A stretch of 17,687 nucleotides of DNA from Podochytrium sp. JEL0797 (taxonomy: Eukaryota > Chytridiomycota > Chytridiomycetes > Chytridiales > Chytriomycetaceae): NCBI GenBank assembly GCA_027596195.1, contig JADGJG010000507.1:1-17687 (forward strand), given 5' to 3'. The position numbers and the translations under genes are program-made. The notes under the pieces are model-generated. The model did not search any database. It was not told where the DNA came from and saw only the letters and a program-made list of their open reading frames with translations. Below are positions 451-17,687 of this stretch, in pieces (the stretch's first letter is position 1; each line of letters begins with the position of its first letter).

Positions 451-3400
451 TTATTCATCGCTTTTCCATTCCTCATCCAAATTCGCTCCATTGCCGTCAT
501 TTGCAGAAGGTGGCACAAACAATGGATTCTCATGGAGGCCACTTGGGCCAGAGTAGAGTGGGTTTTGATCCACGACACCCTGCAGAATTATTCAGCTTTC
601 ATGAATAAACGAAATCAAAAAAAAACGCACCAGCATTGGGTCAGAGTTATTGAGATCAATCACGGATGCTCCGAGACTCTTTCTGCGGTACATGAAAATC
701 CCGGCAGCAGCTCCAACTGCAGCGAGGCCCCCAACGACTCCAATAAATGCAGGGGTCGACGTAGTAGTTGTCGCACCGGGAGTGGGCGAGGTGGTAGGGT
801 CGCCATTGACTGCAGATGCAAAGTTGTTGAGACCGCCACTACCTGTGGGTTTACTTGATTTGACAGTTTGGCTTCTGATGGAAGCAAGTTGGATGAGATT
901 GGTTGAGTTGGACGCAGTGCTGATTTTGCTGGTGGCTCCTGTTCCAGAAGAAAGTTTGCTGACAACACTGGTGCTGGTCGGAATGCTGGTTTTGATGGTC
1001 GTACTCGTTCCGGAAGAAAGTTTGGTGAGGCCACTGGAGCTGGTTGAAGTGCTGATTTTGACGGGCGCGCTTGTTATGGAAGCAACCACGGGGAGAAGCG
1101 AGGTGCTGTGAATAACGCTACTTGTTATGGAAGCAACCACAGGGAGAGGCGAGGTGCTGTGAAGAACGCTACTTGTTATGGAAGCAACCGAGGTGCTGTG
1201 AAGAACGCTACTTGTTATGGAAGCAACCACGGGGAGAGGCGAGGTGCTGTGAAGAACTCTAGTTGTTTCCGAAGTGCGGAGAAAGTCGGTTGTCAGAGTG
1301 CCAAAGCTTGGGTTGGCGCTGGTGGATGCTATCGAACTTCCTGAATGCTTCACGCCCCCATCAGAGAAATGAATTGGGGCCAGAGTTAAAGTTGTGGAAG
1401 TACTTGAGGTTGAAGTGGATGTTGTGTGTGTGGCGGAAGTACGCGTTGTGCTCGATGTCGAGCTCGTCGTGCTGCTTGAAGTTGTTGTGGACGTCGAAGT
1501 ACTGGTCGAGGAGCTGCTGGTGGTGCTCGTAGACGTGGATTTAGTGGTGGTTGTGTGGGTTGATGTTGAAGTAGAAGTCGTCGTTGTGCTCGATGTCGAG
1601 CTCTTCGTGCTGCTTGGAGCTACGGACATCAAAGTACTGGTTGAGGAGGTGCTACTCGTGCTCGTTGTCGTAGAAGAAGTGGCAGCTGTGTGGGTAAACG
1701 TTGAAGTAGAAGACGTCGTCGAGCTCTTCGTGCTGCTTGAAGTTGTGGACGTTGAAGTACTGGTCGAGGAGCTGCTGCTAGTGCTCGTCGACGTGGATGA
1801 AGTGGAGGTTGTGTGGGTAAACGTTGAAGTAGAAGACGTCGTCGAGCTCGTCGTGCTGCTTGAAGTTGTAGACGTCGAAGTACTGCTCGAGGAGCTGGTG
1901 CTCGTTGAAGTGGTGGAACTTGTTGTCGAGCTTGTGCTGCTCGAAGTGCTCGTGGTGGGAGTACTCGTTGACGTAGAAGACGTCGTGGAAGTGCTCGTCG
2001 TTTCGGACGTTGTCGAGCTGGTGCTGCTGGTTGAAGTACTCGTTGAGGTAGTTGTTGGAGTGGATGTTGAAGTAGATGACGTCGTTGTGGTTTCAGTCGT
2101 GGAGGTTGACGTGCTAGAAGTGCTCGTCGTTTCAGACGTTGTCGAACTGGTGCTGCTGGTTGAGGTACTCGTTGAGGTAGTCGTCGGAGTGGATGTCGAA
2201 GTAGATGACGTTGTGGTGGTTTCAGTCGTGGAGGTTGACGTGCTGGAAGTGGTTGTTTCGGTCGTTGTCGAACTGGTGCTGGTTGAGGTAGTTGTCGGAG
2301 TGGATGTCGAAGTAGATGACGTCGTGGTGGTTGCAGTCGTGGTGGTTGACGACGTGCTGGAAGTGGTTGTCGAACTTGTGCTGCTTGAAGTGCTCGTAGT
2401 GGGAGTACTCGTCGATGTGGAAGACGTGGTGCTCGTGGACGAAGTCGATGATGTGGTGCTGGTCGTTAAGCTGGTTGAGGTGGTTGAAGAGGATGTAGTA
2501 GAAGTTGAAGTTGTCGTTGTGCTCTATACAGTAAGCGAGTATCAAAGGAGTGCTCAGTTTTAAGGAAGACTACAAACCGTTGAATCCGTCACGTAGACGT
2601 CCGTACAATTCACAATCCGATTAGTGATTGCAGTGTACATATTTTGCAATATCGATGGTCCGATGGTAGGGTTAATAATGTCCTGAATCATGTAGAGGCG
2701 CATCATGCCGTTTTTACGTAACACTTGCGCCTGAAGCGATGTTTGCAATTGGTTGGTCTCAAGGTTCAGGTAAGTTGCAGATGCGCTGAACTCGCCAAAT
2801 GTTGAAGATTGCGACTGCAGGAGGGGATCTCCGTATTGGACAATTGCTGTGTGAGCATGATTTTGTGTAGCTGTGGGATACACGTCTTTGTAGAGCTGGT
2901 TGTACGTATCAAACGTGGATTGCGGTCCTGCAGTATTGGCATTGAATGTTGATTGCATGAGAAGAGAGATGGAGGCTCCTGTGGACACGATCAAGTTGGC
3001 CGTGACTACAATTTCAGTGTAATAGGGATCTTCAAGGACGATTGGCACCGACGAATTTCTAAAGACAACAATTTGAGATCTCGTCACAACATACAAAAAG
3101 GCTTACCTGTAAAAGTTTTTGCCATAAAACTGTCGCGGCTGGAACGGTGGTTCGATTCCAGAGCAGCTGGAGCTGATACCATTATTATACCCACTTGGGC
3201 AAAGAGCATTTCCTTGCGCCGGCATCATATATGTACTAAAGCAAAATTGATTAGCATAATCGTACTTTTTGCTGAGCAAATCTTACTTGCTCGTCGGAAT
3301 ATCCGAATCTTCATCCGTCGCCATAATAATCTGCTTCTGTACGTTCCCATTTCTCCAAATAAGACTACAGGCTGAAGTATAAGAGCCAGTACACGCTTTG

Positions 3401-3910
3401 ATCATATCGGATCCATTATTCGGATTCAGCGTCATGCGGATCGCTTCCATTCCGGCTTCCCAACCCGAGCGTGAACACCCGACAGCCAACAGCGCAGCTT
3501 TCGCATCGACAGCACTTGACTTTAGAGCCGCGTTTGTTTAATCGATCGAAAATGGAATCGATTGGTGGCGCTTACCGTGAATGGGAGCAAAATAGACGGC
3601 TGACCCCCGAATCCAATCACAGAGTATCTCGCACTGATGTTTTTCGCGTTGATCTGATCCACAAACAGGGCCAGGTTTGCCGCACTATGGTGCAAAGTAT
3701 ATGTAAAAACATGAGAATGGATGTGAAGAAAATAAGGTAATCGAGATTGTGGACTGACATTTGCTGGTTGTACAGGCACATGCTCGAGGATCCGTCAATA
3801 AGGAACAAAAAGTCGGCTGGGACAGATTGCGTGATGTTGGAGCATTGCGTGACATAGCCCGCGCTCACGATCGTTGCGCATAACACGATCAAGAACGCGA
3901 TCAGGTCCAT
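451..3910 (-). CDS. vWA-domain Ser/Thr-stalk membrane protein with NPxY-type tail (paralog A, 1041 aa, 7 exons)
   Basis: Exons (minus strand): 3910-3759, 3684-3576, 3519-3287, 3235-3107, 3058-2578, 2523-631, 579-451; all introns are GT..AG and 48-74 nt long. Residues 1-18 look like a signal peptide. A vWA domain follows, with MIDAS D39-x-S41-x-S43 (FLFLIDGSSSM) and a later IIMATDEDSD segment (155-160) that fits the third metal-site loop. The Cys-containing ectodomain runs to about residue 368. A Ser/Thr mucin-like stalk of roughly 580 residues comes next, then a Gly/Ala-rich TM helix (about 961-980, GGLAAVGAAAG), the stop-transfer YRRK, and a tail with NPLY (1005-1008) and NPLF (1017-1020). 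Every splice was checked against paralog B, which aligns through each junction. Exons 6 and 7 are the least certain because the stalk is low complexity, but the frame stays open throughout and the tail matches B closely. A role in adhesion or surface recognition is inferred from architecture only. Confidence 0.82.
1066..1257 (-). repeat. In-frame 51-nt tandem repeat in the paralog A stalk (4 copies)
   Basis: Units lie at 1066-1116, 1117-1167, 1168-1206 and 1207-1257, with lengths 51, 51, 39 and 51 nt. The third lacks 12 nt. All lengths are multiples of three, so the protein frame is kept. Each encodes a variant of VLHSTSPLPVVASITSS; the short copy reads VLHSTSVASITSS. Near-identity between copies suggests recent slippage or unequal exchange. 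Confidence 0.93.
1988..2350 (-). repeat. 129-nt tandem repeat in the paralog A Thr/Ser stalk (about 3 copies)
   Basis: Copies start at 1988, 2117 and 2246, exactly 129 nt apart (43 codons). The first two are nearly identical and the third is shorter and more diverged. The repeat encodes Ser/Thr-rich protein on the minus strand. On the plus strand the same DNA is G/T-rich. Confidence 0.85.
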
Positions 3911-4116
3911 AATTGTTTTGGGGATAAAAAAATTGTTGGCCGCGCGCCGAAAGGCGGCAGGAAATCCTTGGCTTAATTCAAGGTCAATAGAAAAAAAGGG
4001 AAGACTTCAATAGGGTATAGGATGTATAGCATATAAATATGGCATAGAATTAAAAAAACGCGTAACGCCCTCATTCACTTTTTGATTTTTCATTCATCAA
4101 TTTATTTGGGTAGTTA
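3911..4116. other. Intergenic spacer between paralogs A and B
   Basis: This 206-bp AT-rich spacer holds the 3' end of paralog B and the presumed promoter of paralog A. A TATTTATA-like element lies near 4031-4038 on the minus strand, about 120 nt upstream of the paralog A ATG. That assignment is weak. No coding potential was seen. Confidence 0.5.
4101..4106 (-). terminator. Poly(A) signal AATAAA for paralog B
   Basis: A canonical AATAAA on the minus strand lies about 11 nt past the paralog B stop codon, in AT-rich sequence. Confidence 0.5.
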
Positions 4117-7100
4117 TTAAAATATTTCAATATTGTGCTCGTGAATTGCTTGTTCCGGAGGTTGGTATAGTGGATTTTCACGCACTCCGGAGGGCCCCGA
4201 ATATAAAGGATTCTGCGCCGCCTGAAACATGGCATCCGATTGACTCATGGAATTTGCCGAGGCTGGGGTAAACGAGCCCCTGTTGTACATGAAGGCAAGG
4301 CCTGCAGATGCTCCCACTGCCACAAGCCCACCCATCACGCTGAACGATATTATTTTTGGCGATGCTGGTGAGGGTGCACTTGTGGGAGTGGCTTCCCCCG
4401 CTGAGGGTATAGTATCAATATCATTGCTAATGCCTCCAAACACCAGTAGCCTTGTTGAAGCAGGAGTGGGAGTGGAAAGAACGGAGCTTTCAGACTGCTC
4501 CAGAATTGTTCCAATGAACTGTTCAGACGAGTATTCCGAGTTCAGCTTAACAGTAAAGATTAAATCTGGGCCGCTTGTTGTTGTTGCGGGAACTGGCTGA
4601 ATCTCCTTTGTGGACTCCAAAGGCGGGTTAATTGTTGTTGAAGTGATATCTGAACCTGTGCGGCTGGAAAAGGTGGTGGATGTCGTAATAGTAGATGTGA
4701 ATGAGATCGTGGTGGATGTAGTACTTGATGTGGTCGTTGAAGTGGTTGTACTCGTGGACGAGGTCGTGGACGTGGATATTGTTGCAATGTAGTCTAGAGG
4801 GTCGGAAGTTGATGTACTTGTTGCTGTTGACGCAGTGCTGGAAGTGGACGTGCTTGTCGTAGAAGGTGCAGTGCTGGAAGTGGATGTGCTTGTTGTGGTT
4901 GATGCAGTAGCCGTTGTAGCTTCAAGAGTTGTTGAAGGAGATGAGGTTGTGGTATCCGTGGTTGCGACCGGGAAACTGGATGTGAACGGTGTGGCTGTTG
5001 TTGATTCATTATCGGAAACCAGAACGTTTATAGTTGTTGTAGTGGTGGAAGTAGACGTGTTGGTGCCGGTGGTCGAAGTCGTAGTGCTGGAAGTAAACGT
5101 GCTGGTGGTGGTGGTTGAAGTCGGCGTGCTGGAAGTGGAAGTGCTGGTGGTTGACGTTGCAGTAGAGGAAGTAGACGTGCTGGTGGTGGTGGTCGCGGTC
5201 TTAGTGCTGGAAGTGGACGTGCTGGTGGTTGACGTCGCAGTGGAGGAAGTAGACGTGCTGGTGGTGGTGGTCGAGGTCTTAGTGCTGGAAGTAGACGTGC
5301 TGGTGGTGATGGTTGACGTGAACGTGCTGGTGCTGGTGGTTGAAGTGGACGTGCTGGTGGTTGACGTCGCAGTGCTGGATGTAGAGGTGCTGGTGCTCGT
5401 CGTCAAAGTGCTGGAAGTAGATGTGCTCGTCGTTGATGTCGCAGTGCTAGATGTAGTTGTGCTGGTGCTGGTGGTCTGAGTACTGGATGTAGATGTGCTG
5501 GTGGTTGAAGTTAGAGTGCTTGAAGTGGACGTGCTGGTGGTTGACGTCGCAGTTTTGGATGTCGACGTGCTGGTGCTGGTGGTCTGAGTGCTGGAAGTAG
5601 ATGTGCTCGTAGTTGACGTTGCAGTGCTTGTTGAAGTTGTGCTGGTACTGGTGGACAAAGTGCTGGAAGTAGATGTGCTGGTGCTGGTGGTCTGAGTGCT
5701 GGAAGTAGATGTGCTCGTAGTTGACGTTGCAGTGCTTGTTGAAGTTGTGCTGGTGCTGGTGGACAAAGTGCTGGAAGTAGATGTGCTGGTGCTGGTGGAC
5801 AAAGTGCTGGAAGTAGATGTGCTGGTGCTGGTGGTCTGAGTGCTGGAAGTAGATGAGCTAGTGCTAGTGGTTGTTGTCAGTGTGGAAGTAGTTCTTGTTG
5901 AAGTTGTTGTGGATTTAGTCGAGGTGGTGGATGATATGCTTGCAGCTGAACTCGTGCAATTCTGAACCATCATCTCCATCGCGTGGTACACGTTACTCAG
6001 AATTTCAGGGCCCATGACTGGATCGATTCTAATCAACGAGTGAGAATGGCGGCAAAACCGGACACATGCACACCCACAGCAAACTCACATCTCCTCAATT
6101 TGATAAACACGCATCACTCCACCTCCCTTCAGCACTACTGCCTGTAACGACTCCTCCAACCCACTCGCATTCAGATTCACCCATGTCTGTGCTGCACTAA
6201 AGCTCCCAAACGCGTCATCTTGTGCCTGCATCCGCGGGTCTCCATACTGTAGGACAGCCGTATGCGCGTGATTCACGTTACTCGAGTTTGCTCCAAAAGT
6301 CGAAAACCATAGGTTGTGCTCGTCAAAAGTGGATTGCGGGCCTTTGATGTTGGCGTTGAAATCGGATTTCATGAGAAGAGAGAGGGAGACCGAGTTGGTG
6401 ATGATCATTTTGGCGGTGAGTTGGATTTCGTCGTAATACGGCTGTTCGAGGGAAATCGGGCCGGGTGATGTCCGGTAATAATTGGAATTCCAAAACAAGC
6501 TCGGTTGAAACGGTGGCTCAATCATCGCTGTACCCGACAAACACCCCATCGTCACCAAAGAATATCCACTAGGACAAAACGCGTCGCCACTCCCTTGATT
6601 GGGGAGCAAGTAGTTGTTGGAGATGGGGATGTCTGAATCTTCATCCGTCGCCATGATGATTTGTCGTTGCGCCCCATTTCTCCATTGAAGATTGCAGGTT
6701 GAAGATCCTCTGAATCCAGAGATGCAGGAGGTGCGATCCATGTCGGTGCCGTTGTTGAACTGCAGCGTCATTCTGATCGCTTCCAGGCCGGATTCCCATC
6801 CAGACCGTGAGCATCCGACTTTGAGAAGGGCTGTATTCACGGATGCAATGTCATTCTGGTTGCATCAATTTCAATGATTGATAATCAATTTGCAATTCAC
6901 TCACTGTGAAGGGAACAATAATTGATGGCAAACCACCGAACGCGACTACTCCGTACCTTGCATCGATACGAGTTGCGCCGATACTTTGCACGAAGCGTTG
7001 CAGACTGGACGCGATCAGCGAATTGTAAGAGCACATGCTGCTGGAGCCATCAATCAGGAACAGAAAGTCAGCTGGGACGGAGGTGGAATAGTTTGTGCAT

Positions 7101-7171
7101 GTGCTGGCAATCAAGGAGGTGGAGACAAGCTGTGCGGATAACACGATCAAGAACGCGAGGAGTGACCCCAT
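4117..7171 (-). CDS. vWA-domain Ser/Thr-stalk membrane protein with tandem NPxY tail (paralog B, 981 aa, 3 exons)
   Basis: Exons (minus strand): 7171-6905, 6855-6089, 6028-4117; introns are 49 and 60 nt. Residues 1-24 look like a signal peptide. The vWA MIDAS is D41-x-S43-x-S45 and the ATDEDSD loop is at 158-164. The ectodomain carries conserved blocks shared with paralog A, such as VGCSRSGWE, EPPFQP, GPQSTFD and NHAHTAVLQYGDP. A Ser/Thr-rich stalk starts after NCT at about 370 and gives way to a less repetitive juxtamembrane region. The TM helix is about 903-926 (MGGLVAVGASAG). The cytoplasmic tail carries NPLY at 951-954 and 963-966, eight residues apart. The second splice gives EEIIDPVMG, matching the unspliced QDIINPTIG of paralog A. 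vWA MIDAS domains bind protein ligands through a divalent metal, and NPxY motifs bind PTB/FERM domains such as talin. Applying these roles here is inference. Confidence 0.87.
5581..5796 (-). repeat. 108-nt direct duplication in the paralog B stalk
   Basis: The block starting at 5581 recurs at 5689, 108 nt (36 codons) later, with almost no differences. It sits in a longer field (about 4740-5930) of shorter, degenerate Thr/Ser codon repeats encoding strings such as TSTSTSSTQTTS. In-frame expansion is consistent with a flexible O-glycosylated stalk. Confidence 0.8.
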
Positions 7172-7290
7172 TTCGGGGAAATGTTTGTCACGAAAAAGAT
7201 TTGATTATGGAGTACAAGCTAACGAAAGGAAGGACCATGCAGGCAAACTCGTCCCTTCTCCTTCCATCAAAAACGATTACGCAAAAAAAA
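7172..7290. promoter_or_regulatory. Divergent promoter region shared by paralog B (-) and the DOCK gene (+)
   Basis: The start codons of paralog B (7171, minus) and DOCK (7291, plus) are only 119 bp apart, so both genes must draw their 5' regulation from this stretch or from inside each other. No TATA box is evident. Two further ATGs in frame with DOCK lie at 7207 and 7237, so the spacer may be shorter still. Confidence 0.55.
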
Positions 7291-10200
7291 ATGGAGATAG
7301 AGTCAATACAAGCCCCCCGGCTGCCACCTGAGAGCGCCACGCTGGCCGTGCTGGCGAGTGGATGGACACCACCCGAGAACAACGATGGCGTGTGGAAGCC
7401 AGTCGCGGGAGATGCGAATGCGGTTGATGGGGTTGCGATCCAGGCGTACGAGGCGGGCGGACTGCCGGGCTTTGTGTCGCTGGACGTGGGCGATGGTGCG
7501 TTGTGCTTCTCGCTCATTCCCTATTAGGCGTTTGCTAGGGAGTGCCAGGCGTTTGCTAGGCGTTGCTTGGCGCTGCTCGGCAATGCGCCCTAAGCATTCG
7601 CCAGCCACTTGCTAGGCACTCGCTAGGCCTTCCCTAGGCGTTCACTAACCAAAACGTCTAGTTGTCCTCGTTGTCGAACAGCACCAAACCGCGACTCAAA
7701 CGACGTGGTTCCGTGGCTACGTGTTTGCCGCCACGTTCGCTGCACCGCTGGCTGCACAGCACTTTGCCCTCGGCGTGTTTCCCGCTGCCCATGTTGTGCT
7801 GAGTGTCCGGCCTGCGGGGCAAGGAACCTTGGAAGCACCCATGTTGTCGGGAGTGTCGTTGTTTGCGGGTGAGAACTGTCCTTCAAGAGAACCACATCCT
7901 GACCACCGTTACTAGCCCATCCCCGCATTCCCCCCCCCGCATTCCCCACCTACGAAACCGTGCTTGGCTTCCGCGAGCCGCTGATTGACGGCATTGCCGC
8001 GACTCTCGCCGAGTGGGCCGATCTGCTCAAGACCCACCTGAATGCCCAGGACTATGCGAAACACACGGCCATTCTGGCCCTGTCGCGCCAGCTGTACCAC
8101 GGTCGTTCGCAGCTGCTGGCCGGCGCCCTCTCGCGCGACCGTCTTGCAAAGATCCGCGCGAACCTCGTTGATATCCTCGAGTTTGGCAACCACCTGCAGG
8201 GCCTAGTGGCCATCGTCAGACACCGCTCGCGCGGATATCTGCTGGGCGAGAAGAAAACTTCCTCCATCGTTCGCGTCTTTGCCTCGCACTTTGAAACTCA
8301 TGAGCGCCTGCGCCTCAGCGACCACTCCTTCTCGATCTATTCCAAATTGTACGAAAAAGTCTCGGCACATCGCTACACCCTGTCACTCGCTCCCCTGGAC
8401 CCGGACCCGCGGTCGCTGCTCAACGCCCCGTCCCTCAATCGCAACGACCCGGTGCTGACATACTACGTTCATTTCGAACTGAGTTCGTGCTTTGCCCAGA
8501 TTTGTCTGCCTGGCGAGCATGCCGATCTCATCTTTTCTCTGTATGATCACCGCGCGCGGAGGCCCCTGACGGAGGACTTTTTAGTGCGCATTGACTACAC
8601 GGGAATGCCCGTGAGCACGGATGCGGAGGGGCGGTTGCGTCTCAAGACGGTGTTTTGCGAGTTGGGAGAAGGTGATTTTGCCAGTGACGCTGCCAGCGTG
8701 TGTCTGGTTGTGCGCATTGTGCGTGTCGGGCGGATGAATTCGAATGAGAAGGAGGTGGGAGGTGGTGTTGGGTTGGGGGATACCGAGAGTTTGTTTGGGA
8801 AGGAGGGCCCGTTTCGTTTGGGGTTCGCCTCGAGGCTGGGGTCGGGTGGCGGTGATTTGCTATCCAAAAGACCATCACTCAGAAATAGGGCGAGTACGGA
8901 GAGTTTGGGGAGCGGTTCAAGCTCAGGGGATGGAGTGGGATTGAGGAGGCCGTTTGCGGCGGGCGTGCTGGATCTGACAGAGATTTGGAACAAGGCCAGG
9001 AAGGCGGGGGTTTCCGACACGAACGCCGTGATCGAAAGCAGTGTGGCAGCTGCAAACGTGTCCGAGAATGACGTCGATCGTAATTTGATGGAGGGGGCGG
9101 AACACACGCTTCAGTTGTACTCGCCCGTTCCGGAGTCTGGGTTCCCAGACCTGCCCGACCAGATTATCAAACAATCGGATACGAATTCCTCGCAGGAAAA
9201 CATCAAGGTTGTACTCAACATGAGCGCCCATACTTGTTCTGTTTCGGAACCGGTCCCTGTCTCATTGATCAAGGTCGAATCCACCCCGCGACTCGGCTTC
9301 CCGGAACGCATCCATCCACACGATTCGCGAAACAGCATCTATTTGACTCTCCAATCGGGAGAGTTTGCCTCACGCCCCACGACTTTTGCGCAACGCAATG
9401 TTCAAGTGATGGTGCAGGTTCGCACGTCTGATGGCGTGTTTGTCGATCACTGCATCTCTCGAGGATTCAACGGGAAGGAGAACACCTACGAATCTGTCGT
9501 CTACTATCACTCCAACTCTCCCACTTGGTCCGAAACGATTCGCATCGACTTGGAGCCCCAAATCCTCGAAAAGGCCCACCTGCTTGTTCTCCTTCGACAG
9601 TGCTCCTCGGCCCAAGACACCGGTGAACGCGGACTCTTTGCGTTTGCATTCTTGCCCCTCATCCGAGGAGATTTTACCGTCATTGCGGACGACATCCACA
9701 CCCTGATTCTGTACAAGTACGACAAGAGTATCGTGCAAACGGCCGATTACCTCAAATGGACCACCAACTGTACAGGCACCCCAGAAATCACGACCACTAC
9801 CCCATCCACCCCAACCAAAACGGCCTCCCCGAAACTACGCGACAAAATCACCCTCCGCACAGCCCTCTGCAGCACTCTCATGACGCAAAGCACGGGGATC
9901 CTCAACCTTCTGCACTGGCGCACCGCGACGCTACATTTCCGCGTTCCTGTCTCGCGGATTCTGGCGCAATTCCGAACCTCGGTCCCGCCTTTGGAGATTG
10001 TGAAATTCCTGCATGGGATCTTGGATGCGTTGATTGGGGTGTTGGATTCGTCTGATTCTGCGCCGTCGACTGCAGCGTCTCCTGCTACGCTTGCGCGGTA
10101 TCCTGGTGGAGGAGTGGGAGCGGGAGCAGGGGGAGACGCGAGTCCCGTTTCTGAGACGGAGTTGAACAAGGTGGTGTTTGAATCCATGATTTACGTGTTT

Positions 10201-13200
10201 GGAATCATTCTGCAGCCCCGGTTTGGGGCGTATGAGGCTGCGTTGGAGGCGTATGTGGATAAGTTTTTGAGGAGTACGGCGTGTTGGAGCAAGATTTTGG
10301 AGGCGTTTGTGGCTTTGTTGGAGGCGGGGGGGAGTGGTAGCTCGAAGTGTGAGTTGTTGTGTGAGAGTATCAAGGTGTGGCGGTTTTGGGTGCAGATTGT
10401 GGTGCGCAGCGGGCTGGTGCATCAGAAGCTGAGTGTTGCGGAGGGAGGTGTGGCTGAAGGTAATGATGGGGCTGGGAACTCGTTCCGTGACGGTCTGTGT
10501 GCCATGTTGGGAATCTTGAAGGGGTTTATTGCGCTGCCGTTTGACAATGTGACGGAGGCGCAGGTGCTGGTGTTAAGGCATTTGATGGAGTTGGTGCCGT
10601 ATTTGGAGACGGTGTATGGGGCTTTTGCGTTGATACCCATGTTGGTGGATTTTGTGGATAGTGTGAACACGACCAAGGTGATATTTTTTGGCTTGTTTCG
10701 TGGGTTTTGGTTTGTTTGGATTGCTCACTCGTTTTCATATTTTTTTGTTCGCAGCCAATCTTGAATACCTTCAAGCTCGCCTTTGTCCATTGCCTGATTC
10801 ACAGTTCCGTCTTCAACGACCAAAAGAGCCGACTCACTCTCGTTCATGCCACGAAGCGTTGGATACTCGGTCCTCTCACGGCAGACCTCTCCAGCGACGC
10901 CAACTCGTCCAAAATAGCCGCTTTCCGTCTCTCTCTGAGCATCACAGTCGAATTGATTGACAAGCTCCATCGTGTGAGGGACCGCCTGGCCAAAGACGCG
11001 GCGCGGGTCGACAAGACGGGAACGGACGTTGCGGCTCGAAGCGACCTGCTCAAAGCATGCGTTGACGAAATTTCACCTCTTCTGGAGCCGTTGATTCGAC
11101 AATACGGAGTCCTCGTCAAACTCGTCAAAAGTCTTCCTGCGGAGACAGGGGCCACGTTGCGCAGGGGATCGACTGCAGCAGGGGACAGGAAGAGCCGAAC
11201 GACAAGCGTCTCGTTTTTGCAATCCCCGTTACGCAACGAGCTCGCGGAACTGGCGGCTGTGATTCTGTCGTTTATCCACTTTCTCCCTTCGAGCGAATTG
11301 TCGGCTCTTCTCAAGATCCATTTGGGCGGCACGTCCAAGGAGAACGGGATTGGCGATGTGTATATTGTGATGCAGAGTTTGATGCGGGGTGACGCGTTTC
11401 CTGATCACTGGGCCAGTGCGAATATGATGATTAGCAAGTGTGTGATCAAGGTGTTACGGGTTGTGAATGACCGGTTGAAGGTGCAGCAGGGTTCTGTGAA
11501 GGGAAGTGTGAGCGCGCAGACGCAGCTGTTTTTGCTCGATTACTTGAGCATCATTCTGCAGTTGCTCACGTCGCGGTCGATTGCGACCGAGTATTTCAAG
11601 CCGCAGTTGGCGCGGTTGGCGTATCGGTTGGAGGCGGATGTGAGGGGGGAGGCTGGGGAGTTGTTTCGATTCGCGTGGATGGAGGTGATTATGGCGGATA
11701 CGGTGGATCGTGGGAGTATTAGCTTCGTGCGGAGCTTGTTTGCGTCGTTTTTGGAGCTTACCATGAGCCCGCATCACAAGCTGAAGTATGCGGCGATTGA
11801 ATTGTTGTTCAGGTTTGTGATGAGAGTGTTTTTTTCGGGAAAACTTTCGCGTTGTTTGCTGATCGCTGGTTTTGTTTTTGCGCTCGTAGCATCATAGAGC
11901 ACGAGTGCAAGACCAAAGGAGACTTTTCTTCTCTGGAAGCAGAGTGCTTGGACCGTTTGGAAGGGCTCATCATCTCGGACGGGAAGGGCGACCAAGTGTT
12001 TCGTCGATTTTTTGTCGACTCGCTCAGCAAATACTTTACCGCTGCGGCCGTTTCTTCCGTGGCCGCCGCCACGAGCAAACTGGACGACGAAGCGAGTCGC
12101 CGCACGTTCAGTACGAGTGCAGCCTCCAGCAACATCACCTCGTTTGCGGCATGTGGGGCGCGGTTCTTAAAGAATGTGGACACGTTGATGGACATGTGCA
12201 TCACGTTGCGGGATATTCCGTCGGATCCGAGATTTGATGAAGAGAGGATCTGGATGTCGCTCAAGTTGATGTACTTTTTTAGGGATATGAGCCGCAGGTT
12301 TGTTTTACTCTGTAGGTTGAAAATGACAATCTCTGAACGTGTTTATTTTTTTGGTTGCAGGGGGTTGTATGTCCGATATATCCACAAGCTTTCTGAGCTA
12401 CATTCTGCTTTGGGAAACACTGCCGAGTCTGCTTTGTCGTTGAAGCTTCATGGCGACCTGCTCCCGTGGTCGCATGACGAGCAGTTGGACCCACTCCCGC
12501 AGTATGGATTCTCAACTCGTCAATCAGCATTTGAGCGTAAAGAGCAGGTTAGTTTGTTCAACTACCGTGATGCGTTGCGTTGCTGATGTGTGGTGTTGAC
12601 GCAGATTTGGTTGTCGTGCCTCGCCGGCCTGGAGCAAACCAACAACTGGGAGCGCGCGATTGTCTTGTATTCCGAACTCGCTGCTCAGTACGAGAAGAAG
12701 TGGTTCAATTACACGGACTATGCGCGGATACTGCGGAAACAGGCCGACTTGGTGGAAAACATAACAAGCAAGGAACGGTACTTTCCGACCTATTATCGGG
12801 TGGGGTTCTATGGCAACGAGCATTTGAGTTATCTACAGGGAAAGCAGTTTATTTATAAGTAAGTCGCTATTCGTGAATGTCAGCGTGTTTTCGTTCTGAT
12901 GTGTACGAAACTTCGATAGGGCCCGCGAATGGGAAAAGCTGGCATCGTTTTGCGAGAGCATTTTGAACAAGTTTGTCGGCTCTCAACTTCTCGCGTCGAA
13001 CGCTCCGCCGACGGATGACATTGTCCACGGGAACGGGAGCTGGATCCAAATCACTTCAGTGAACCCCGAAATCGACCGTCAACGCTGGGCAGACGGGGAC
13101 ATCAACTCGGCCTGGTACAACTGGGAGTACGACTCTGAGCGCTTCTCGGATGTGGACACCCTTCCGCACCATACCGATCTCTCCTCTGCCTCTGCCCGGG

Positions 13201-14426
13201 GTGATGGGGGCGAAAGTGCCGGAGCCAGCTTGTCGGATGTGTCTCGTGGAAAGGGCGATCACTCAAACAACTACATCAAATACCTCATTGAGCCCGACCT
13301 CGACCCTGACACGGAGAGTGTGATTTCCAAAGCCAATGTTCTGTTGGACTCGATTCCGACCCCCGTCAAGGCGTTCTACTCGAGCAACGAAATCAACGCG
13401 TTCTCTTACTCTCGCCCGTTTCGACGACAACATCACCAAGAAGACGCGGTTTCGATCTCAAGCGGTGGCGTGGGTGGAATGATGGACTCTTCGACGAGTT
13501 CCCTTACCGACTTGTGGACAGAGAAAACGCTGTTTCTTTCGGCTGACACGTTTCCCTGTCTGTCGCAACGCAGTCAAGTCATCAAGTCGTTCACGATCCA
13601 GTTGTCTCCGATCGAGAATGCCATCATTGCGGTGCGAACCAAGAGTCGGCAGTTGTGCGCTTTCTTGCGGCAGTTTGAGAATCCAGAGAACAATGGTGGT
13701 AGTGGTGGTGGTGTGGAGGCGAACGTGAATTCATTTACGATGGCGTTGAATGGGGCGATTGATGCTCCCGTGAATGGAGGAATACCAATGTATAGGAAGG
13801 CGTTTTTGGAAGATGGTGCAGCGGGGTACTCTGCTTCGCAGGTGAAGATGTTGAGCTGGTCGATTGAGAATCAGGTAATTTTTTTTTTGTTGGCGGGGTT
13901 GATTCGTTTTTTTCTCACGCCTTTTTGTTGCGATAGATTGAACTCCTGCATCGCTGTCTGGATGTCCATGGGCGATTAATTGGATCGCAGATGCGGCCAC
14001 TTCACGATAGTCTGGTGTCGGTTTTCTTCAGGAACTTTGAAAAAGAGCTTGTGAAACTTGGAGTCGAAGTTGTTCGGCCTGCATCGTCGGGTTCGTTTTA
14101 ACGTTTTCATTAATCAATCTATTAATGATTCTAACCTCAATCGCTTTCCTGGCATAGTAACTGCGGCACTCATTCAGGAGGATCGCGGTGGCGGGAAAAC
14201 CTTGCTCCGATCGGCCTCATCCGCCTTTCTTGCACTTAACAGCCGCAAAACATTCGATAGCAATACGGGCTCTGCCTTGTCGTCAGTGATTGATCTTGCG
14301 CTGGGGTCGCCGTCTTCGTTGCAAGCGCCGCCAGGTCAATTGACCAGTATGTCATCGAATGCCTCTGCGACTGGGCTATCTATTGGGGCCAAAATGCGGG
14401 GCTTGTTCAACAAGGATCTGGCGTAA
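7291..14426 (+). CDS. DOCK-family Rho GTPase exchange factor (SH3, DHR-1/C2, DHR-2; 2152 aa, 10 exons)
   Basis: Exons: 7291-7495, 7662-7868, 7916-10677, 10755-11812, 11890-12297, 12361-12547, 12605-12858, 12920-13874, 13937-14090, 14158-14426; total 6459 nt. An N-terminal SH3 (about residues 44-120) is restored only by joining exons 1 and 2: GVAIQAYE...SLDVGDVV...WFRGYV...GVFPAAHVVL. DHR-1/C2 spans about 593-740 (IYLTLQSGEF..., VVYYHSNSPTW, PLI). A helical-repeat middle follows. DHR-2 spans about 1550-2060 with family hallmarks RYIHKLSELH, WERAIVLYSELAAQYE, RYFPTYYRVGFYG, FIYK, FSYSRPF and MALNGAIDAPVNGG. In the family, DHR-1 binds phosphoinositide and DHR-2 activates Rac/Cdc42-type GTPases, usually with ELMO. 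The SH3 places it with the DOCK1-5/Dck1-like group. ATGs at 7207 and 7237 are in frame and could add 28 or 18 residues; 7291 has a good context (A at -3, G at +4) but the start is not settled. Exon 3 carries a low-complexity insert near residues 400-560. Confidence 0.93.
7526..7646 (+). repeat. Degenerate 11-bp tandem repeat filling DOCK intron 1
   Basis: About eleven head-to-tail units follow the consensus AGGCGTTTGCT (units of 10-13 nt, for example AGGCGTTTGCT, AGGCGTTGCTT, AGGCACTCGCT, AGGCGTTCACT). They make up most of the 166-nt intron 1 (7496-7661), which is more than twice the length of any other intron here. The last unit runs into CTAACC, a good branch site, 11 nt before the TCTAG acceptor. 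Confidence 0.85.
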
Positions 14427-14473: not shown

Positions 14474-16381
14474 TCATTGAATTCGCTTCATCAATTCGAA
14501 CTCCTCTTCCATTTTCAAGACAATGTCCGAAAGTTTGAGGACCGCTTTTGCCATTTTCCAAACCATCATTACCTGTGTGGTCATCAACAACGCAAACACA
14601 AGAACTGACAACGAAACCAGAATATTGACATCCAACCACGTTTGCTGCGTCTCGCATTCGTTCACAACTGGAGCTGGAGTTGCATTGAAAATAACGGTTG
14701 GCAAGGAGGACCCATTCGACATTTTTCTATGGGTTCGGTGTTTGCTAGCGCGAACCGTCGCGTTAGAGGCAACAGACAATGTAGAAGAAGCCGTGGAAAG
14801 GTTCTTTCGGTGATGAGTACTTGGGAATCTTTTGGGAGACGAGGAGGCGAGCGCCAACGACGGCCACACCTTTTCTTCCACCTTGCTGCTGTTGTTAATG
14901 TTCTTCATTTTGCTTTCTTCAAGTTGAGTAGTCAGCTGTGCAATCATGGTTGCGAAACTGTGTTTGATTCCTGTGATAGAACTCTTTGCGACGGTTTGAC
15001 TGCCGATGGATTGTTTTTCAAATTCCACAATTGTCGAGGCAGTGAGTTTGCATTTATCATCTCCGTTTCCTCTCGTGATGCAAGTGACAATTGTGCTCGA
15101 ATATTCGTCGCCAAAAAAGTCTTGCGTTGTTTTTTTGGTTTTGATGCAAATCCCTCCCGGGAAGTTGATGTTCACGACTTCTTGACAAACAGCAATACGG
15201 CACTGTGTAGGTCTCAACTGCTCCTCATTCGCGGGAAGGATATATTCCAATCTTCTTGAATCACCGAGAGAGAGGTGGGCGATTGGCTTCACCTCGAATT
15301 CGTCAAACGCGGCGAGAGGGGCCAAGCTCTGTGGGGTATTTTTCGGAGTCCACTTGCTAAGAATGACATCCGTCTCTGAAGAATGTTCCACCAGCGAAAA
15401 AACCAAATTTCCAACAAGATTCAGAAACACTGAGTCAGGTTGTTGTTGTGGGCTACACAAAAATTCGGCTGCCATGGCAACAGAGCAATTGAATTCTCCT
15501 TCAAACACACGCGAAGAGGATGAATGATACCCTTCATGGAGTTTGCAATCATTTGACGTTGGAGAGGCGGTGGAGCTTCGGGCTGATCCAGCCAAAAGTG
15601 TTTCCATCGAAGAAACATTTATATCGGCCAAACGGGCAGGTGGTGAATTGAACGAGAACAAGCTTGAGAAAGAGGATTTGCGAGAATGATTTGATTCGAG
15701 TTCAGTCAATGAGCCCAACGTCGCGCCTAAAGGGTCATTCTGCATGGAAGGGGGATTAATTACACCAATAAAAATATATAGGCCTCACATTCAGATGCCA
15801 AAGCTTGGTGAGTATCGAGAACGTTGCGTCGCGATCGAAAAAGCTCGCAAAGTAGAAAATTTCGGAATTCGATTCAATTTGAATCGCGTTGGGGATAATC
15901 ATAATAGTTTTTTTTGCGATAGCTGTAACGGACTTGATCTTAATTTGGATGTTGGATGTGAAAATGGATGAGAAACAAATGTGTTGCGCGGACACCCAAA
16001 GTCGCCCAGCAAGTGGGAGATCGCGTCTGAAGTCGGCACAGGAATAAACTATCGCGTTTATGGTCAACACAAAACTCAAAAACACGCCCACAAACCTTCG
16101 ATCAGTCGCTCGGCGACGGGAATATCTTCAAAAATCTTGTGAAACTCCTTGTTTTCCCGCATTTGCGCGCGCGGTGGAATCACGCTCAAGATTGTGTCAA
16201 TCTCGTTGTTGGAATGATGGGACAACTCGATTCCTCCCCCGCTGATGCTGAATGACTTTTTGCCAACCACTTGGCATTTGTTCGCATGTGGAATCGGGAG
16301 AGACACATCTCGTCTGCTTCTGATCGAGTATTTGCTTGGTTTATAGTCGGACGATGACGAAGAGGAATTCGTGCCCTCCAT
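14474..16381 (-). CDS. GRAM-VASt sterol-transfer protein, Lam/Aster (GRAMD1) family (603 aa, 3 exons)
   Basis: Exons (minus strand): 16381-16096, 16048-15789, 15739-14474; introns are 47 and 49 nt; total 1812 nt. The GRAM domain (about residues 76-182) is split by intron 1 and restored as FHKIFEDIPVAERLIE/VYSCADFRRDLPLAGRLW then VSAQHICFSS. A Ser-rich linker follows. A VASt/Aster domain (about 260-465) comes next, opening FEGEFNCSVAMAAEFL and including SKWTP, RRLEYILP, a Cys/Gln segment (CRIAVCQEV) and a conserved-type IVEFEK strand. A single TM helix lies near 552-576, and the C-terminal tail is charged and helical. In fungi and animals this family moves sterols between the ER and other membranes at contact sites; the TM anchors it in the ER. 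The VASt assignment rests on order and pattern; the GRAM is clear. The gene is convergent with DOCK. Confidence 0.85.
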
Positions 16382-16471: not shown

Positions 16472-17519
16472 CTACCAGAAAACATAAACAACCAGCCCAA
16501 AAACGAAAACTTGAACCATCAAGTCCGCACTTCCCATCCCGCCACTCGCGTCCACCCCGTCTCTCTTCAGCCCCACCAACCCAGACAAACTCGATAATCC
16601 CTGCACACCCTGAACGAGCCCATCAACCAATTTGCCAGTGTTTACAAGCGTGTTCGTCAACTGCGAACCGGAACACACGTCATTGACTGCAGAAGCAACG
16701 GTTGATTGACCACACCCTGTCAGACAACGCGTCAGTGAACTCGCGCTCTGAGCATCGATGCCGCTAAAGCTTATGGTGGAAGAACAGAGGAGGCTAACAA
16801 AGTTGTTGACGTTGGGAGAGTTGAGGTGGTGATAAAGGTTCACGGCACATGTGAGCGCGCAGGATGGAGCATTCGGTCCCGTGTTGATGAGAACGGGAGA
16901 AGCAGAACTGCTAGAGGATCCATCCAACGCGTCGTTCACAATCCCACCCACGATCGCGGGTGCAACTGCCCCCACCACGACGGGGACGGCGGCATTCGCG
17001 ACCGCTCCGACGATATCTCCGGCTAGATCCTTTTTCTGAAGCTTGAGTTCTTGGTTGCTCTCGGGAGAAACTTGGAGCGGGTTTGTGGGTCCTTCGAGAG
17101 ACATGTCGTGTTTTGCGGAATCCTTGAGGAATGGAGTCAATACTTTGACAGAACACTCAGATTCCTCGAAGGATTTAATGGCGGTGTGGGATAACTTGGC
17201 TGGGCAGAAATCCAGGTAGCTATTGTAATAGGGCGGGAGGAATGGGATATAATTCAGTGAATCAGTGAATCAGCGAATCGGACACAAGCCAGACATCACA
17301 GCAAATCATCTCTTACCACTGCATCACCATATTCATTTCAATGCATTCGCATGCATTCAGTCGTCCCTGATTTCTGTGTGGATCACGGCCGCACTGTTGA
17401 GATTCTTGGGTCGCTGCGCCGATGCATTCCTGGAACTTGATGTCGCGACACCCACTAGACGTAGCGAAGCAAGAGATCGAGAAGAATATAAGCAGAGCGA
17501 GGGGAAGAAGGGAATGCAT
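16472..17519 (-). CDS. Secreted, probably GPI-anchored Cys-rich protein with CFEM-like 8-Cys module (316 aa, 2 exons)
   Basis: Exons (minus strand): 17519-17317 and 17219-16472, joined across a 97-nt GTAAGA..AATAG intron. The unspliced frame would stop 2 nt into the donor. The signal peptide is residues 1-22. Eight cysteines follow (24, 32, 43, 57, 59, 68, 73, 90); the last five have spacing C-x-C-x8-C-x4-C-x16-C, close to the second half of the CFEM signature, and an Asp lies at 46. The first pair is spaced 7 rather than 3, so this is CFEM-like, not a clean match. Next come an Ala/Val/Gly-rich hydrophobic stretch (about 137-162), a poly-Ser patch, a six-Cys module (188, 192, 213, 233, 237, 250), and a C-terminal ASGGMGS plus hydrophobic tail typical of GPI addition. 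Fungal CFEM proteins act at the cell surface, some in haem/iron uptake. No function can be assigned here. An ATG at 17582 is in frame but would bury the signal peptide. Confidence 0.75.
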
Positions 17520-17687
17520 TTTGGAAGAGGTTTTCTTAGGCAAAGACCCGCCGCCGGTGCGGGATTCACTTCCCGCTTGCATAAAGCCCGCCGCGTCGAA
17601 ATTCCCGCCAAACAGAAATCAAAATTCGCTTTCAGAATAATAATAATAATATATAAGGTCGTCAAACATGGATACAAATAATATGAG
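17410..17687 (-). repeat. Right arm of the inverted duplication
   Basis: This is the reverse-complement match to 23-270. It carries the intact promoter, 5' UTR and start of the Cys-rich secreted-protein gene. It reaches the final base of the window, so the homology may continue beyond it. Confidence 0.9.
17641..17660 (-). promoter_or_regulatory. TATA-like element upstream of the Cys-rich secreted-protein gene
   Basis: CCTTATATATTATT on the minus strand lies about 130 nt upstream of the ATG at 17519. The same element, in the same relative place, is kept at 52-65 in the left copy. Promoter function is inferred from position and conservation. Confidence 0.35.

Follow-up and report, generated by a model that had tools for sequence, protein, structure and literature searches.

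Twin NPLY-tailed vWA proteins of the chytrid Podochytrium sp. JEL0797 as candidate talin-linked adhesion receptors

Which membrane protein might anchor talin in a fungus is the question raised by two adjacent minus-strand genes, here called A and B, in the genome of Podochytrium sp. JEL0797. Both lie in a stretch of 17,687 nucleotides (contig JADGJG010000507.1 of assembly GCA_027596195.1), the whole of which was analysed and is called the window below. According to a 2016 study, talin, vinculin and paxillin occur in basal fungi without any known membrane anchor, and the role of this scaffold is unclear; a non-homologous protein could replace integrin, with SibA cited as a case, and roles other than adhesion were favoured (PMC5042518). 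Integrins themselves are described as absent from fungi (PMC6685044), in line with the statement of a first-pass annotation of this DNA that canonical integrins were lost there. A and B encode predicted proteins with an outside von Willebrand factor type A (vWA) domain, a long stalk, one transmembrane (TM) helix and a short tail with two NPxY-type motifs. On balance, our analysis inclines us to read them as single-pass, talin-linked candidate adhesion receptors of a Sib-like or integrin-like kind.

Models of both genes were rebuilt from the minus strand on the basis of GT..AG introns, in-frame joins and alignment of the two paralogues (Table 1). All eight introns of the models are GT..AG, measure 48-74 bases and keep the frame at their joins. 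The twin motif block of A maps to a separate last exon, as had been noted before, and an in-phase join gives the same block that B carries in an intron-free stretch; the introns, the join and the match to B support the splicing of this NPLY exon at the level of sequence. The layout drawn in the first-pass annotation was recovered in both proteins: a signal peptide-like start, FLFLIDGSSSM, ATDEDSD, a Ser/Thr-rich stalk that is probably O-glycosylated, a small-residue TM helix with GGL(A/V)AVGA(A/S)AG, and NPLYSGPSG..ENPL(Y/F). The cytosolic tail of about 60 residues follows the common pattern QNPLYSGPSGxxENPL[Y/F]xPP, with 12 residues from the Asn of the first motif to that of the second in each protein.

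The rebuilt models contradict the public annotation, since the deposited proteins of the window (HDU98_008625 and HDU98_008624 of Podochytrium sp. JEL0797; P0001/P0002, 552 and 575 residues) follow a different frame through the stalk, one rich in His and Tyr, and contain no TM helix behind the vWA domain and no tail. We take the Ser/Thr frame as real because in both A and B it leads into a matching TM helix and tail, and because the stalks of two relatives (P0008 and P0009, see below) are also Ser/Thr while that of a third (P0006) is rich in Ser, Pro and Ala. A Chytriomyces hyalinus protein, P0007, apparently has the same annotation fault (judged by look only), and models with a His/Tyr-frame stalk (P0001, P0002 and apparently P0007) may hide similar receptors in other genomes. 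A structure model of the deposited ectodomain has a mean predicted local distance difference test score (pLDDT) of 52, since wrong-frame stalk makes up more than one third of what was deposited; blocks within the vWA core score about 80-93.

Over 367 residues the two ectodomains share 54% identity (E 6e-141), and an alignment of the C-terminal 150 residues of A and B reaches E 8e-21. Synonymous sites are saturated (proportion of differences, pS, 0.77 in the ectodomain and 0.99 in the cytosolic tail); this marks A and B as old duplicates, and for the same reason no dN/dS ratio is given. Despite this saturation, A and B share 16 of the 20 residues in the block that starts at QNPLY and closes with the PP behind the second motif, while the tail ends differ. 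When the tails were shuffled 200,000 times, at least two NPx[YF] motifs arose in 43 shuffles for A, 162 for B and one for P0006, the Synchytrium microbalum relative described below, so that the twin motifs of these three exceed chance expectation.

A search with the tail of A over the 24.4 Mb genome (995 contigs, the window being contig C454) matched A and B only. Codon matches to ENP[LF][YF] number 60 genome-wide against 21 in the reversed control, and two of the 60 are A and B. The surroundings of the other 58 gave 62 occurrences, from which eight that duplicated a neighbourhood already counted were dropped to leave 54 distinct ones; a second NP[LF][YF] within 40 residues in an open frame occurs in none of the 54, nor in any of the full 62. 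The excess over the control is therefore not a visible tail family, and a wider NPLY-tailed family in the Podochytrium genome was rejected as a candidate.

The same genome encodes a protein that could receive such a tail. The annotation had suggested looking for talin or other FERM genes, and a profile search of the genome found one talin gene, on contig C12 (I/LWEQ 111.5 bits, FERM_M 46.2, IRS-type phosphotyrosine-binding (PTB) domain 93.1), as well as a vinculin gene on contig C534. The talin domains span about 8 kb on a single strand, and the exon translations give FERM_f0, FERM_M, IRS/PTB (101 bits), Talin_middle, Talin_R4, VBS2, IBS2B, a rod segment and I/LWEQ. F1 had no Pfam match in these translations, in which the gene was read piecewise and not as one spliced product. 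The gene has what defines a talin, namely a FERM head with a PTB-type F3, a rod with vinculin-binding bundles, and I/LWEQ. The best solved match to its F2-F3 region is 3g9w (talin-2) with E 8.9e-55, followed by many integrin-talin constructs. F3 is identical at 69 of 102 residues to the talin-1 chain 1y19_B and likewise to the talin-2 chain 3g9w_A, with RWAA retained. A fungal talin with a head is worth stating because the Orpinomyces talin is listed from the middle domain (residue 100) in PMC5042518, in the main text of which the word FERM is absent.

None of the three FERM loci found in the genome was recognisable as a kindlin. Besides talin, these are a KRIT1-like gene (L021 on contig C103, about 4412-6396, minus strand), with KRIT1 chains as best solved match (E 8.7e-08), and a MyTH4-FERM gene (L022 on contig C398, 29-2600, plus strand) that begins near the contig end. 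The latter has the order FERM-MyTH4-FERM, with MyTH4 at 49.2 bits, an arrangement that we take to be that of myosin VII tails.

Dictyostelium provides the closest model for how the parts might work together. There the plan rests on experiment: SibA combines a vWA domain, a GxxxG TM helix and two NPXY motifs, and talin A binding depends on the first of these motifs (PMC9197732, PMC9453864); the background on Sib proteins given in the earlier annotation agrees with this. In Dictyostelium, talin A is under no tension without SibA (PMC12686525). By analogy, the vWA domain of A and B would hold a ligand of the substratum or wall through its metal site (DxSxS), the Ser/Thr stalk would lift that domain through the cell coat or wall, talin F3 would take up the first NPLY of the tail, and the talin rod would bind actin and recruit vinculin. 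A and B would then act like beta-integrin or SibA, no alpha subunit having been found so far, and the outcome would be a force-bearing grip for zoospores, germlings or rhizoids. Batrachochytrium zoospores attached to concanavalin A, whereas collagen, fibronectin and keratin gave no attachment in the conditions used (PMC5461030), so that a ligand unlike animal matrix is possible. The talin- or PTB-linked adhesion receptor proposed by the first-pass annotation thus gains from the layout, the constrained motif block and a talin with a PTB-type F3 in the genome, but this evidence does not establish that the family descends from integrin or Sib.

The tests of descent were of several kinds. At E<=1, the ectodomains of A and B match neither Integrin_beta (PF00362) nor vWA_SIBA-E (PF24909); Pfam gives VWA families only. 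Hybrid, PSI, I-EGF and beta-tail domains are absent from both ectodomains by Pfam, which agrees with the annotation for the integrin EGF and hybrid domains, and the stalks are cysteine-free. The cysteine-rich domain and R1-R4 repeats of Sib proteins were not seen, judging from the cysteine-free stalks (no R1-R4 profile search was made). An alignment segment covering the Glu loop together with WRN..ATDEDSD has no match among solved chains at E<=10. Of the relatives described below, P0003 exceeds the Integrin_beta cut-off, at 34.9 bits over 47 residues, and P0004 and P0011 stay below it; for vWA_SIBA-E, P0003 (E 0.0072) and P0011 (E 0.012) both fall short of the cut-off, and one of 10 members matched in another test. 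By the tests made, A and B are assigned neither to integrin beta nor to Sib, and their ectodomain is not demonstrably closer to either than to other vWA domains.

Searches of the Podochytrium genome found no integrin beta families, no integrin alpha (PF08441), no SIBA-E families and no PID-type PTB domain. These absences are weak: no control genome matched, and the search with PF00092 listed two other vWA genes, on C545 and C69, but not A or B, which shows that exon-split domains escape such searches. An A/B-like layout was not seen in the open frames listed for C545 and C69.

Set beside known systems, A and B resemble Dictyostelium SibA-E in the outside vWA domain, the single GxxxG TM helix, the two cytosolic NPxY-type motifs, the talin in the cell and the lack of any integrin alpha/beta pair found; they differ in that their ectodomains have no SIBA-E match and that a Ser/Thr stalk is seen in place of a cysteine-rich domain and R1-R4 repeats. 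With animal integrin beta they have in common a MIDAS-type (metal ion-dependent adhesion site) vWA domain and a short tail that bears a pair of NPxY-type motifs (NPLY and NPLF in A, NPLY twice in B), the second motif standing 12 residues on, as in integrin beta-1 and beta-3, and the F3 of the genome's talin is conserved as given above. Unlike integrin beta, they lack the PSI, hybrid, EGF and beta-tail domains, the Asp pair of the site adjacent to MIDAS (ADMIDAS) and a tryptophan ahead of NPLY, and no alpha subunit was found. Apicomplexan TRAP is likewise a vWA adhesin with one TM helix and coupling to actin, but it has another tail and another actin bridge and is not known to use NPxY or talin. 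Yeast Wsc/Mid2 sensors have a long Ser/Thr stalk, one TM helix and a short tail, but are not known to have a vWA domain or a twin NPxY tail. These wall sensors have been proposed as functional analogues of integrins (PMC6685044).

Three protein searches returned 11 records, two of them the window's own and nine from outside. The second, made with stalk-masked queries, returned records of 287-622 residues only and missed P0006 and P0003; the third returned known records only. The outside relatives are from Neocallimastix lanati (P0003), Phlyctochytrium planicorne (P0004), Synchytrium microbalum (P0006), Chytriomyces hyalinus (P0007, P0010), Chytriomyces sp. MP71 (P0008) and Obelidium mucronatum (P0009), with two metagenome records (P0005, P0011). 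A label of fungal-type surface proteins had been used; the range seen is narrower, the named relatives among these 11 records being confined to Chytridiomycota and Neocallimastigomycota, besides the two from metagenomes. In an alignment of 12 vWA sequences (three of them from P0003, two or three of them truncated at an end), the invariant positions include DEDSD, the GWEAG-loop Glu and two glycines. P0003 itself shows three vWA domains in a row, then cysteine-rich repeats (about residues 1310-1468, no Pfam match), and no TM helix as deposited. P0006 is the sole outside record (1 of 9) with a TM helix behind the stalk, and there follows NPLFATRQMMENPLY, with a tail of the form NPLF..ENPLY whose motif starts are 11 residues apart. 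The NPLY tail thus recurs in the one homolog where it can be judged, the other eight lacking a TM helix and three of them being partial.

Several observations weigh against A and B being talin-linked receptors. Conservation of the tail beyond the window is that of one sequence, P0006, in which NPLF is the leading motif and the gap to the next one is seven residues long rather than eight. Eight of the nine outside records have no TM helix behind the vWA domain as deposited, three being marked partial, and the deposited P0003 is devoid of NPx[YF]. A and B lack the tryptophan that precedes NPxY in integrins, and a profile of the tail has no match among solved chains at E<=10. The constraint claimed for the tail stands for the motif block, but over its full length the tail evolves no more slowly than the ectodomain, with a nonsynonymous divergence (dN) of 0.50 against 0.40. 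The KRIT1-like and MyTH4-FERM genes could also read the tail motif. Finally, the Orpinomyces scaffold genes were not up-regulated on cellulose, and Calkins and Youssef favoured non-adhesion functions (PMC5042518), which argues against adhesion as their role in that fungus.

Four other explanations were weighed. The NPLY motifs might serve chiefly in the endocytosis or recycling of a sensor of the surface or of wall integrity, with a PTB or FERM trafficking adaptor as their reader and no force-bearing link. NPxY is a generic PTB ligand, and the plan of a Ser/Thr stalk with one TM helix is also that of the Wsc/Mid2 sensors; yet the strongest PTB-like domain found in the genome is talin F3 (93 bits), no PID-type PTB was found (weak, as noted), and a metal-site vWA ectodomain points to ligand binding. 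We consider this account unlikely.

Quite unlikely, in our estimate, is a tail partner other than talin, either the KRIT1-like or the MyTH4-FERM protein. The match of the former to KRIT1 and the MyTH4 and FERM pieces of the latter speak for such a partner, as does the listing of Dictyostelium myosin VII as a talin A interactor (PMC9197732), but their F3 lobes are weaker: 20-22.7 bits with IRS on C398 and 16.7 bits on C103 (KRIT1/FRMD8 lobe), against 93-101 for talin F3. We give equally little credence to A and B as ordinary cell-coat glycoproteins in which the stalk is the function and the tails are alike only through kinship of the duplicates. One-TM, Ser/Thr-rich proteins are common in fungi, and the dN comparison fits this account, whereas the clustering of tail changes outside the motif block and the recurrence of the motif in Synchytrium argue against it. 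Very unlikely is true, degenerate descent from integrin beta, despite a top structural match to the I-domain of Pactolus (which we take to be an integrin-beta relative) with integrin beta chains frequent in the next rows, an invariant Glu of the GWEAGLEAI loop at a place that Thr occupies in other vWA domains (presumably as in beta-I domains, a stretch of which WRN..ATD also seems to resemble), and the Integrin_beta score of P0003.

Extending the talin-linked reading beyond this genome is a more tentative step. It is possible, if short of probable, that zoosporic fungi kept talin-vinculin adhesion with this vWA/twin-NPLY family outside, as a third kind of talin-coupled vWA receptor next to integrin and Sib and as the anchor missing from basal fungi, whether ancestral and alpha-free, from before the integrin heterodimer, or convergent. 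No fungal receptor of the A/B kind is described in the titles and abstract beginnings among the matches listed, in which subscription journals are mostly uncovered. Now that a candidate has been named and its tail defined, the link to talin can be put to a direct test, either in a chytrid or on purified domains. Should the tail bind talin F3, talin adhesion without an integrin heterodimer would have existed in fungi too, and this would bear on the proposal, made from Dictyostelium, that adhesion through integrins is a specialised form of a talin system of greater age (PMC12686525).

Table 1. Positions of the two genes, their predicted protein parts and neighbouring features in the window
Feature	Position	Strand	Remarks
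Gene A	exons 3910-3759, 3684-3576, 3519-3287, 3235-3107, 3058-2578, 2523-631, 579-451	-	predicted; 1041 aa, 7 exons; stop 453-451
Signal peptide-like N-terminus of A	3857..3910	-	putative; hydrophobic stretch aa 3-21
vWA ectodomain of A, about aa 33-360	2602..3814	-	DxSxS aa 39-43, invariant E108, D156-EDSD
Ser/Thr-rich stalk of A, about aa 369-955	763..2523	-	74% Ser+Thr, zero cysteine
TM helix of A, FIGVVGGLAAVGAAAGIFM	691..747	-	hydropathy 2.10; GAAAG = GxxxG
Twin motif of A, NPLY SGPSGLHE NPLF	517..564	-	in last exon
Gene B	exons 7171-6905, 6855-6089, 6028-4117	-	predicted; 981 aa, 3 exons
Signal peptide-like N-terminus of B	7112..7171	-	putative; hydrophobic stretch aa 4-22
vWA ectodomain of B, about aa 35-369	5956..7069	-	Pfam VWA_2 34.6 bits, VWA 25.1 bits
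Ser/Thr-rich stalk of B, about aa 373-900	4363..5946	-	74% Ser+Thr, zero cysteine
TM helix of B, IISFSVMGGLVAVGASAGL	4297..4353	-	hydropathy 1.86; GASAG = GxxxG
Twin motif of B, NPLY SGPSGVRE NPLY	4165..4212	-	sequence reading
Divergent gap between B and DOCK-family gene	7172..7290		119 bases; ATG of B at 7171 (-), ATG of DOCK-family gene at 7291 (+)
DOCK-family gene	7291-14426	+	DOCK_N, DOCK-C2, TPR_DOCK, DHR-2 lobes
GRAM + VASt protein	14474-16381	-	in neighbouring open frames
222-aa frame	16472-17140	-	several cysteines; no Pfam match at E<=1
Contig ends	23-270 and 17410-17687		inverted repeat, 76% identity over 289 columns

The neighbour that stands head-to-head with B is a gene for a DOCK-family activator of Rac/Cdc42. 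DOCK proteins act below integrins in animals, as a partner of integrin signalling; if zoosporic fungi did keep talin adhesion with the A/B family outside, this close linkage would be more than chance. Beyond it lie a protein with GRAM and VASt domains, which we presume may be a sterol-transfer protein of the Lam/GRAMD1 type, and the 222-residue frame. Both ends of the contig, which form the inverted repeat, carry a small secreted-type reading frame with SSGCRD(I/V)KFQECIGAAT in common.

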